Positions 61,349 to 63,854 of a stretch of 64,000 bases of DNA are shown here, piece after piece (position 1 is the stretch's first letter; each line of letters starts with the position of its first letter). The DNA comes from Pseudolysinimonas yzui. GTDB taxonomy: Bacteria; Actinomycetota; Actinomycetes; Actinomycetales; Microbacteriaceae. Made by a program: the position numbers and the translations under genes. The notes under the pieces were generated by a model that saw nothing but the letters and a program-made list of their open reading frames with translations, was not told the origin of the DNA and ran no database searches. The stretch spans positions 579,237 through 643,236 of the forward strand of contig NZ_BNAI01000001.1 in assembly GCF_014653215.1 (NCBI RefSeq), written 5' to 3'.

Positions 61349-62065
61349 TTGGACGTCCCCTACGACGAGAACCGGGTGCGGCCTCGTGAGGTCGAAGTCG
61401 ACGGTGTGCGGTACGAGCGCATCCCGATCAAGACGCACGTGGTGCTGCCCGGGGAGCCGCTCCACCCGGTGATCGAGAAGTACGCCCTCGAGCTGCTGCA
61501 GGACGGCGACTGGCTGTTCATGACCGAGAAGATGGTCGCCGGCTCGCAGGGCCGCGCCTACCCGGTCGCGGAGACGAAGGCCCGGCCCCTCGCGGTGTGG
61601 CTCAGCAAGCGCGTCGTGCGCACCCCGTGGGGCATCGGCCTCGGCATCCCCGAGACGATGGAGTGGGCGATCCGCGAGGTCGGCACGCCGCGCATCCTGT
61701 TCGCCGCCGCCGTCTCGGTGATCACCAAGCGCTTCGGGCGCACCGGCGACTTCTACCGGATCGCCGGCACCAAGGCGCGCGGCATCGACGGCCCCGGCTA
61801 CCCGACGATCCCGCCGTACGACGAGATGGTCGTGCTGACCGCCGCGAAGCCGAAGCAGACCTCGCAGCAGGTCGGCGACATGCTGGCGCAGCACGGCAAG
61901 CGCGTCGAGGTCTTCCTCGTCGACATCAACGACATCGGCGGCAACGTGCTCGGTTCAACGACCGATCGCGCGACCGAGCTGCTCGTGGCGCGCATCCTCA
62001 AGGACAACCCGATCGGCCAGGGCCACGAGTCCACCCCGCTCGGCATCATCCGCCGCGCTACCTGA
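61349..62065 (+). CDS. CofE-like (coenzyme F420-0:L-glutamate ligase family) protein
   Basis: A protein of about 238 residues resembling the F420-0:gamma-glutamyl ligase fold. Segments are ERIPIKTHVVLPGEPL, EKMVAGSQGRAYPVAE, IDGPGYPTIPPYDEMVVLTA and DINDIGGNVLGST. No other F420 biosynthesis gene lies in the window, so whether it makes F420 is open. TTG 61349 starts 8 bases after the sigA stop; GTG 61375 is an alternative. It is probably co-transcribed with sigA and ends before a palindromic repeat. Confidence 0.7.
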   Translation: MDVPYDENRVRPREVEVDGVRYERIPIKTHVVLPGEPLHPVIEKYALELLQDGDWLFMTEKMVAGSQGRAYPVAETKARPLAVWLSKRVVRTPWGIGLGIPETMEWAIREVGTPRILFAAAVSVITKRFGRTGDFYRIAGTKARGIDGPGYPTIPPYDEMVVLTAAKPKQTSQQVGDMLAQHGKRVEVFLVDINDIGGNVLGSTTDRATELLVARILKDNPIGQGHESTPLGIIRRAT

Positions 62066-62130: not shown

Positions 62131-63192
62131 CTACTCGTTCAGGTAGATCCGCGGGATGCGGGTGGATGCCCGCGCGAGGATCTCGTCCCCGATCGTGCCG
62201 GCCCAGCCGGCCCATTCTTCGGCGGTCGGCTCGCCCTGGTCGCCGGGGCCGAAGACGATCGCCTCGTCACCCACCGACGCCGTGGCCGCGACCTCGATCG
62301 TGTCGATCCCGACCGCTGTGACGCTGACGCGACGCCCCCCGAGCAGCACCTCCGCGCCGGATCCCGACGGCCCGAGCACACTCGGCGGGACGCCGTCGGC
62401 GCTGCCCAGGTCGAGTGCGACCGTGCCGCCGTCCGCGGCGATGACCGAGGCACGCATCGTCATCGGGGCGCGCATCCCGAGGCCGCGGGCGTCGACATCG
62501 TCGAAGGGGGAGACCCCGTAGGCGGCGATGCCGAACCGCACGAGGTCGAATCGGGCCTCGGGCATGCGGATGCCGGCCGAGGATGCCGCGAGGTGCAGCA
62601 GCGGACGGTCGGGGCCCTCCATCGGCACTCCGATGCCCGCGGCGACGGCGACGGCGGCCTGGAACTCGGCGAGGGCGGCGGCGTCGTCGGCGGGGGAGGC
62701 GTCGGCGAGGTGCGACCAGAGCCCGGCGAGCCGCACCTGGCCGCGTTCCTGGTAAGCGAGGGCCTCTCCGACGAGGGCAGGCCAGTCCTCCGGGCTCGCG
62801 CCGTTGCGATGCAGCCCGGTGTCGATCTTGAGGTGCACCGCTGCGGGACGGCCGGCGCCGGCTTCGCCGATGCGCCGCAACTCGACGAGCGATGACACGC
62901 CGAGGTCGACGTCCGCCTCGATCGCCGCTCGGAAGTCGGTGTCCCGGCCGTGCAGCCAGGCGAAGAGCTGGGCGTCGATGCCCGCGTCGCGCAAGGCCAG
63001 CGCCGCGGGCGCGTCGAGCACGGCGAGCGAATCGGCGCCCGACTGAAGTGCCGCGCGGGCGATCGGCAGCATCCCGTGGCCGTAGCCGTCGGCCTTGACC
63101 GCGAGCATCGTGCGCGCGGGGGCGGCGATCGTGGCGAGAGCGCGCACGTTCTGCCGGAACGCCTCGAGGTCGATCTCGATGCGCGCGCTCAC
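62131..63192 (-). CDS. alr: Alanine racemase-like protein with PLP lysine, lacking the catalytic tyrosine motif
   Basis: A 353-residue fold type III PLP protein. The PLP lysine is present (Lys33 in AVKADGYGHG, Tyr37), as are Lys122/Arg129 in LKIDTGLHR, Arg219 in LVRFGIAAYG, and Tyr350 in RIPRIY near the end. The C-terminal domain lacks the SYGxTY motif carrying the catalytic Tyr; the region reads SVIAADGGTVALDLG. The MDQ motif is IDT. GTG 63192 overlaps the stop of the neighbouring racemase-like gene by 4 bases. Together they may form one active enzyme making D-alanine for the cell wall. Confidence 0.85.
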   Translation of the reverse strand: MSARIEIDLEAFRQNVRALATIAAPARTMLAVKADGYGHGMLPIARAALQSGADSLAVLDAPAALALRDAGIDAQLFAWLHGRDTDFRAAIEADVDLGVSSLVELRRIGEAGAGRPAAVHLKIDTGLHRNGASPEDWPALVGEALAYQERGQVRLAGLWSHLADASPADDAAALAEFQAAVAVAAGIGVPMEGPDRPLLHLAASSAGIRMPEARFDLVRFGIAAYGVSPFDDVDARGLGMRAPMTMRASVIAADGGTVALDLGSADGVPPSVLGPSGSGAEVLLGGRRVSVTAVGIDTIEVAATASVGDEAIVFGPGDQGEPTAEEWAGWAGTIGDEILARASTRIPRIYLNE

Positions 63193-63854
63193 CGGGGGCT
63201 CCGTTCGACGCGGGATGCGATTCCGGCGGTGAGCGCGAGCGGGTCGCGCTCGGTCCAACCGGCCCACTGGAGTGCCGACGGTTCGCCGCGTGCGGGATCG
63301 CCGAACAGCACCGCGTCGGCGCCCAGTTCGATCGCAGCATCCCCGACGTCGAGCACGAACTGGTCCATTGCGATCCGCCCGACGAGGGGGAAGGTCGCCC
63401 CTCCGACGCTCACCTGGGCGCGATTCGACGCGAGCCGCGGCACCCCGTCGGCGTAACCGAGTGCGACGAGGGCGAGCGTCGTCGGCCGGGGGGCGCGATA
63501 GGTGTACCCGTAGGAGACGCCGGCGTCGACCGGAACCCGTTTGAGCGCGACGACCTCGCCGATGAGCGACAGCACGGGTTGCCCGTCACCGACGAGACCG
63601 TACGCGCGCGCGTCCGCACCCGACGCCTCGTGATCGAGACGCACCGTGCCGGCAGCGAAGCCCGCCGCGATGGCGACACCGGCATCCCGTTCGTTGCTGA
63701 CGACGATCTCGCGCACGCCTGCTTCGAGCGCCGCGGGAGCGATCAGCTCGAGGCCGTGGCCAAACGCGTCGGCGCGGGCATCCAGAACGTCGCCGGGGCC
63801 ATTGGCGACGAACGCGTCGAGGTCGATGAGAGCTCGACGGCGGATCCCAGGCAC
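63189..63854 (-). CDS. Shortened alanine racemase-like protein with catalytic tyrosine, lacking PLP lysine and half the barrel
   Basis: A 221-residue paralogue. The N-terminal strand reads DARADAFGHG, with Arg27 in place of the PLP Lys and Phe31 in place of Tyr. About 120 residues of the barrel are missing. The C-terminal domain is intact: SYGYTYRAPRPTT (Tyr115, the catalytic position), ALGYADGVPR and GRIAMDQFVLDV. It lacks the C-terminal Tyr. GTG 63854 is chosen after a short gap; the gene overlaps alr by GTGA. Its missing parts match what alr keeps, so it probably supplies the second half of a composite active site. Confidence 0.8.
   Translation of the reverse strand: MPGIRRRALIDLDAFVANGPGDVLDARADAFGHGLELIAPAALEAGVREIVVSNERDAGVAIAAGFAAGTVRLDHEASGADARAYGLVGDGQPVLSLIGEVVALKRVPVDAGVSYGYTYRAPRPTTLALVALGYADGVPRLASNRAQVSVGGATFPLVGRIAMDQFVLDVGDAAIELGADAVLFGDPARGEPSALQWAGWTERDPLALTAGIASRVERSPR

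Follow-up and report, generated by a model that had tools for sequence, protein, structure and literature searches.

Two overlapping genes of Microbacteriaceae predicted to encode complementary subunits of an alanine racemase-family enzyme

We analysed a stretch of 64,000 nucleotides from Pseudolysinimonas yzui (assembly GCF_014653215.1, contig NZ_BNAI01000001.1, forward-strand positions 579,237 to 643,236; hereafter, the window), in which two overlapping genes, one long and one short, encode paralogues of alanine racemase (Alr). These genes very probably encode two non-identical subunits of an amino-acid racemase of the Alr family that depends on pyridoxal 5'-phosphate (PLP), with a single composite active site. 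We infer the physical heterodimer and its activity from the complementary residues of the two chains and from natural fusions of the genes. The short/long architecture is conserved in Microbacteriaceae and is not a chance effect, as it recurs in 72 longs and 75 shorts, all distinct, and both genes are under purifying selection in the comparisons made; the reciprocal loss seems, from the sequences, to have arisen in longs at least twice within this family.

In the window, the short gene lies upstream and the long gene downstream, between parE and a gene that we take to be cofE-like, which adjoins sigA. A preliminary description of this DNA, made from the sequence alone, had proposed that the two genes share a GTGA and had placed the key residues (K33, Y37 and Y350 of the long; R27, Y115 and the MDQ motif of the short). 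The overlap was borne out by the frames (63854–63189 and 63192–62131 of the minus strand), and the residue placements by the frames together with the alignment. The features are as follows.

63189–63854, minus strand: gene of the short subunit, 221 amino acids, from GTG at 63854 to TGA at 63189; remnant barrel and complete Alr C-domain, with equivalents of Tyr265', Arg290' and Met312' present and the PLP lysine replaced by Arg27
62131–63192, minus strand: gene of the long subunit, 353 amino acids, start GTG at 63192, stop at 62131; complete Alr barrel with PLP Lys33 present, the catalytic-Tyr loop of the C-domain deleted and MDQ lost
63189–63192, minus strand: GTGA overlap of the short stop and the long start
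63510–63512, minus strand: codon of short Tyr115 (Tyr265' equivalent), within SYGYTY
63366–63368, minus strand: codon of short Met163 (Met312' equivalent), in the MDQ motif
63774–63776, minus strand: codon of short Arg27, at the position of PLP Lys39
63094–63096, minus strand: codon of long Lys33 (equivalent of PLP Lys39)

The long protein exceeds the gathering score of both Alr-fold Pfam domains (Ala_racemase_N, 185.8 bits; C-domain, 49.9 bits), the C-domain match beginning only at profile position 35. The short protein matches the C-domain (111.5 bits, profile positions 1–125 of 127) and gives no Ala_racemase_N match in Pfam at E 0.001, hence it does not show the two domains of an Alr. Both proteins fall below the 168-bit cut-off of the single-chain Alr equivalog TIGR00492 (long, 159.3 bits; short, 89.2 bits). 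Neither chain has the PLP lysine and the catalytic tyrosine on one polypeptide; they occur together only in the pair as a whole.

Reciprocal loss of active-site residues

Alr and DadX (PF01168 with PF00842; TIGR00492) are homodimers of PLP fold type III with two active sites, and the crystal-structure paper whose residue numbering we follow assigns the active-site segments to monomer A and monomer B (PMC3245724). Members of the family were collected from 249 genomes with the short protein as the query, and the loci were then inspected. We presume the positions of K129, R136, H166, S204 and R219 to be as given here. A unit was classed as long if Tyr265 was missing and as short if the mid-barrel was missing. 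The 254 units were reduced to 181 by dropping identical 100-residue cores, and two fragments with only the C-domain were then excluded, leaving a census of 72 longs, 75 shorts and 32 intact copies; loci fetched later, including the G015 pair described below, are outside it. The pairs are of two types: type I, to which the window pair belongs, lies in the sigA–parE locus with the short gene first, and type II lies in the glmS–tsaE locus, the seat of the ordinary alr, with the long gene first.

All 72 longs keep K39, Y43, K129, R136, H166 and R219, and none has M312; at the Tyr265 position, which defines the class, there is a gap in 70 and glycine in two. All 75 shorts keep Y265, R290 and M312; K39 is retained in none of them (R in 63, S in 6, T in 5, D in 1), hence the partner paralogue has no catalytic lysine, and K129 and H166 are likewise absent throughout. 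In the intact copies K39, R136, R219, Y265, R290 and M312 are all present (32/32).

The same division is seen in the published segments, nine of the 12 of which were mapped here (61–65, 82–86 and 101–105 were unmapped). In longs, the A segments retain the consensus at 0.77–0.97 (the four barrel A segments at 0.86–0.97), and two B segments have fallen to 0.01 (263–266) and 0.18 (309–314). In shorts, the four barrel A segments are at 0.00–0.17 and segment 37–43 is at 0.49, and the B segments stand at 0.85–0.99 (263–266 at 0.99, 309–314 at 0.85). The C-terminal segment 351–358 is retained in longs and shorts alike. The stretch around the catalytic tyrosine has 36 residues in every intact copy (32/32) and every short (75/75); in longs, its median length is 17 (range 8–36) for type I and 21 (range 16–25) for type II. 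Across the barrel stretch, the median length is about 203 residues for intact copies, 202–206 for longs and 66 for shorts.

A substitute catalytic tyrosine in the long had been named beforehand as an observation that would count against the heterodimer. Tyrosine occupies at least 50% of a column only at reference positions 38, 217 and 361 in type I longs, and additionally at 275 and 347 in type II; none of these columns lies in the missing loop, and no substitute was found in the catalytic-loop region.

Taken together, these residues suggest the following mechanism. The long subunit would supply the barrel, PLP on Lys33 and the arginine for the substrate carboxylate, and would bind the substrate. 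The short subunit would dock where the second Alr monomer would sit, reaching into the pocket of the long with the second-base Tyr115, the GYADG/PR arm with the entryway arginine, and the methionine of the MDQ motif. The mirror-image site would be dead, because the short has no lysine and only half a barrel, and only one site would work.

Structure prediction agrees with the fold of such a partner. The AlphaFold2 model of the window short, built with 29 relatives, has a mean predicted local distance difference test score (pLDDT) of 90.9 and a predicted template modelling score (pTM) of 0.87; it covers 227 residues, as it begins six residues upstream of the proposed GTG. All 227 residues align to the whole chain of Streptomyces coelicolor Alr (Z 22.4, 2.6 Å, 40% identity). 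In this model the short is a probable mini-Alr whose barrel has been gutted and whose C-domain is complete, the shape that docking as a partner would require. For a natural fusion from the genome G135, described below, the model has pLDDT 77.8 and pTM 0.81, and its long half resembles Alr (Z up to 24.9). In the top Foldseek rows, approximately 613–626 columns of the fusion fall on one Alr chain with a root mean square deviation of about 18–22 Å; this may be read as the N-domain of the long meeting the C-domain of the short in trans, which it does not prove. An alignment of the fusion with separate shorts and longs was set aside, as it apparently placed the shorts on the long half, where all the invariant columns lie.

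Linkage, fusions and two origins

Of the 75 shorts, 74 have a partner long within the same stretch and on the same strand: in 69 cases the frames overlap, and in five the two share a single frame. The only unpaired short stops 68 bases before its stretch runs out. Among the 69 separate pairs, 64 overlap by xTGA. A type I pair is fused, short to long, in one frame of 832 amino acids in the genome G233. Type II fusions, in the opposite order (long to short), occur in nine genomes of the genus code g73 (Pseudoclavibacter), including G233. In 19 pairwise comparisons within Leifsonia and Pseudoclavibacter, the ratio of nonsynonymous to synonymous differences per site (pN/pS) was 0.10–0.24 in both genes, indicating purifying selection.

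These observations dispose of the alternative that both genes are pseudogenes or duplicates in the course of being lost, harmless beside an intact Alr, which we consider very improbable and have rejected: the window genome does have an intact Alr and either half alone is without some catalytic residues, but both genes are under purifying selection, their complementary residues are conserved across 75 shorts and 72 longs, the genes are adjacent, overlapping or fused, and there are genomes where an intact Alr was not found.

Several genus codes have a tandem of intact genes, alr1–alr2, between glmS and tsaE (L028, L030, L032, L033, L038, L040, L055–L057, L241), which is likely the ancestral state of type II pairs. 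One such tandem is in G258, a member of the genus code g77, the other seven examined members of which have type II pairs. A quick tree of longs included 34 of the 64 type I longs, seven of the eight type II longs and 33 intact copies. The type I longs form a single clade (99*) that joins alr2 (100*). The type II longs also form a single clade (97*), which lies outside the group of type I and alr2, among alr1 copies (88, unstarred). A single origin of all longs was rejected: forced monophyly gave p = 5e-5 in the approximately unbiased (AU) test on the sampled rows. As the longs fall into two separate clades and a joint clade is rejected, the partner-side residues were lost from a full-length Alr at least twice. 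On the side of the shorts, the g77 type II sequences cluster with alr2 (98*), and the g73 type II sequences do not join them.

Three further claims of the preliminary description gain strongly from these data: the complementary loss of active-site halves (from the census and the segments of the crystal-structure paper), the probable obligate heterodimer with one composite site (from the census, the pairing and the natural fusions, all being sequence evidence), and the origin by duplication and reciprocal degeneration (from the census, the trees and the fusions).

Shorts were found in 19 genus codes by the search of 249 genomes and the reading of loci; in the first locus of g53 the long is interrupted by the contig end. 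A DNA pattern for the short motif D-x-R-A-D-A-[YF]-G-H matched in 22 of the 249 genomes and 15 of the 85 genera, and the reversed control gave no matches; as the pattern misses the short of the window itself, these counts are a lower bound. Four of the motif matches had not been read before; all are short–long pairs and add g16, g76 and g80, so that at least 22 of the 85 genus codes carry shorts. A scan of named genomes yielded 43 loci, with carriers including Leifsonia aquatica DSM 20146, L. poae, L. shinshuensis, Diaminobutyricibacter tongyongensis, Pseudoclavibacter helvolus, P. terrae, Salinibacterium soli, Protaetiibacter mangrovi, Homoserinibacter gongjuensis and Gulosibacter chungangensis. 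In a sample of 198 genomes of the order, short-like frames (of at most about 350 amino acids, with a match that begins where the short profile begins) were found only in Microbacteriaceae, among the matches listed.

Some individual loci deviate. The strongly reduced genome G015 (one contig, 927,303 bases) has a worn type I pair beside parE (L255:3226-5146). The long of H. gongjuensis (L089) matches the reference only to position 261, and its C-domain may be truncated or frame-shifted; in one metagenome-assembled genome the long is in two frames (L096:2581-3694; 98 and 93 bits), possibly by an assembly frameshift. A type I pair also occurs in JABBOD010000021.1 (L081), titled as a metagenome-assembled genome of an Acidobacteria bacterium; its scores equal those of L016 from G065, a member of Microbacteriaceae, and the title is probably wrong.

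Intact racemases, sole pairs and the substrate

The window genome has a third, intact, full-length Alr (G000:C4:139274-140335; L001:1051-2157), scoring 284.7 bits with TIGR00492. It lies in a glmS–alr–tsaE–tsaB setting and has the lysine, the tyrosine of SYG and the MDQ motif. Its C-terminal PRxF carries phenylalanine at the Tyr354 position. The Alr supply of this genome is hence independent of the pair, and the pair is predicted to be a second racemase beside the intact Alr. The long of the window pair adjoins the alr2 lineage; the putative substrate of the pair may be D-alanine (D-Ala) or another D-amino acid.

The preliminary description had proposed that the pair is an essential cell-wall Alr, and had stated that a full-length alr elsewhere in the genome, with the pair dispensable, would speak against this. 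The first part of that statement is what we observe in the window genome, where the claim is therefore unsupported; an essential role is plausible, judging from gene content, for type II pairs and fusions, which evolved separately. Of the two patterns expected in Microbacteriaceae, co-occurrence of the two genes is seen almost without exception, and only some genomes, not including that of the window, yielded no intact alr.

Such genomes occur in two genus codes. In g77, seven of the eight genomes have two pairs each and no intact Alr in the PF00842 search. In g73, a canonical Alr was found in none of the 10 genomes, six of which have only halves or fusions (G135, G233, G249, G250, G252, G254; completeness is 83% for G252 and 90% for G254). 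The other four (G072, G187, G251, G253) have in addition a divergent third, full-length Alr-like gene (L138, L139, L254, G253:C1:291495-292580); in L138 and L139 this gene keeps the lysine and has VGYE in place of SYG and GMNC in place of MDQ. Altogether, pairs or fusions were the only Alr-fold candidates found in 11 genomes of at least 97% completeness, the N-domain (PF01168) having been searched in eight of the first 12 genomes and the further genomes by PF00842, with racemases of other folds outside the search.

In nine of these 11 genomes (without G249 and G250), together with G254 and the window genome, 11 in all, we looked for the D-Ala-D-Ala ligase (Ddl) and for D-amino-acid transaminases. 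A strong Ddl match (PF07478, 208–226 bits) was observed in each of them; as PF07478 matches all 14 control genomes, archaea included, only such strong hits were taken as Ddl. None of the 11 has a D-amino-acid transaminase above the curated cut-off, and 10 have weaker matches; in g77, sub-threshold matches to class IV aminotransferases reach 64 bits. In G135 (2.1 Mb, 99% complete) the single Alr gene is a fusion of 617 amino acids, and there is no transaminase match whatsoever. In genomes other than that of the window, a pair or fusion of separate evolutionary origin seems to have taken the place of Alr. All 11 genomes also have a second Ddl-like ligase of the ATP-grasp type with a weaker match (about 130–154 bits; for example, G000:C5:32896-33483), which is possibly a cross-bridge or D-Ala-D-X ligase.

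Within the composite-site reading, the type I pair could be an active heterodimer that uses an amino acid other than alanine. This is a real possibility, although we lean somewhat the other way. It would agree with the coexistence of an intact Alr in the window genome, with the two different pairs kept by the seven g77 genomes, and with the two smaller genomes, G135 and G254, which have retained type II and in which type I was not seen; against it, Alr isozyme pairs in which both members make D-Ala are common in bacteria. A more specific version, which we regard as unlikely, is that type I produces the D-diamino acid found in the group B cross-bridge of Microbacteriaceae peptidoglycan and that the type II pair or fusion is the sole alanine racemase in some genera. 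The idea comes from cell-wall chemistry and the list of carriers: among the named carriers of type I are Leifsonia, Diaminobutyricibacter, Pseudoclavibacter and Homoserinibacter, and these genera carry D-diamino acids in the cross-bridge. We know of no enzyme that makes the cross-bridge D-diamino acids. If this version were true, an essential homodimer would on two occasions have become a heterodimer with one site, and later a single chain.

Weighing the composite site and related systems

A different alternative is that the long homodimerises as a PLP enzyme with another, one-base chemistry and the short serves as a regulator or chaperone. The longs do retain the complete barrel and the PLP pocket, and fold type III PLP enzymes with other chemistries exist. 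However, the residues that would act in trans (Tyr265, Arg290, Met312) are present in every short, the tyrosine stretch is of constant length in the intact copies and the shorts and shortened at the median in longs of both types, and Ddl is still present where no intact Alr was found (in the nine such genomes examined). We therefore hold this alternative to be improbable.

Several observations weigh against the composite site itself. Production of D-Ala need not fall to the pair, as the window genome also has an intact Alr. The loss in longs is partial at the B segment 283–287 (GYADG), which still has 0.72 consensus; aspartate is present at D313 in 57 of the 72 longs and arginine at R290 in one, and some type I longs keep the tyrosine-loop stretch at full length, though the tyrosine is gone. 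In the worn pair of G015, SYC and MDY stand in the short where SYG and MDQ are usual; the long keeps the lysine and has asparagine at Y43. The Tyr265 column of the longs and the mid-barrel columns of the shorts are circular by the definition of the classes; the circularity does not extend to K39 in shorts or to M312 and R290 in longs. The short tree is poorly resolved, the type I shorts being long-branched and unplaced, and the type II shorts of g73 evolving too fast to be placed. The model of the fusion was built on nine sequences only, all of them natural fusions. Finally, both the proposed geometry, in which the tyrosine of the short would approach the lysine of the long, and the activity rest on sequences and models.

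Alr is a standard case of a homodimer whose subunits share their active sites. As compared with this homodimer, the roles would here be divided between two chains, or between the halves of a single chain, and just one site could work. Alr is also a target of D-cycloserine (PMC10288493). In trypanosomatids, S-adenosylmethionine decarboxylase (AdoMetDC) and deoxyhypusine synthase are activated by dead paralogues, the prozymes (PMC3663545, PMC5201418). The predicted Alr pair is similar to them in being a heteromer of an impaired enzyme and a catalytically dead paralogue. The prozymes are eukaryotic, have other folds and are described as allosteric activators; unlike them, the partner in the Alr pair would supply catalytic residues directly, and the pair is bacterial, seems to have arisen more than once and has natural fusions. 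Another parallel is serine palmitoyltransferase, an enzyme of another fold type, whose LCB1 subunit is without the PLP lysine. Its subunits LCB1 and LCB2 form a PLP heterodimer (PMC3794620). As in the Alr pair, one paralogue of a PLP heterodimer has lost the lysine; unlike in the Alr pair, the dead subunit there is not reduced to half a barrel. No report of a heterodimeric or split Alr was found among the titles and abstract openings listed in a search of the open-access literature, subscription papers being mostly outside its scope. As homodimeric Alr and activation by a dead paralogue are already known, the split Alr would be a variant of such a known kind.

A natural complementation experiment has apparently been run twice here: the gene is duplicated, the copies are stripped of opposite halves, and sometimes they are fused into a chain with one site. 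The pairs hence make it possible to test how duplication leads to an obligate heteromer, a process that has been modelled in theory (PMC11066126). In Microbacteriaceae, adjacent Alr-like genes may have to be annotated together, as the two subunits of a single enzyme. The type I pair also offers a concrete candidate for a second racemase of D-amino acids.

The neighbouring gene of the window pair, presumably encoding an F420:glutamyl-ligase-like (cofE-like) protein, occupies window positions 61349–62065 on the plus strand and is convergent with the pair; it recurs near type I pairs in several loci.
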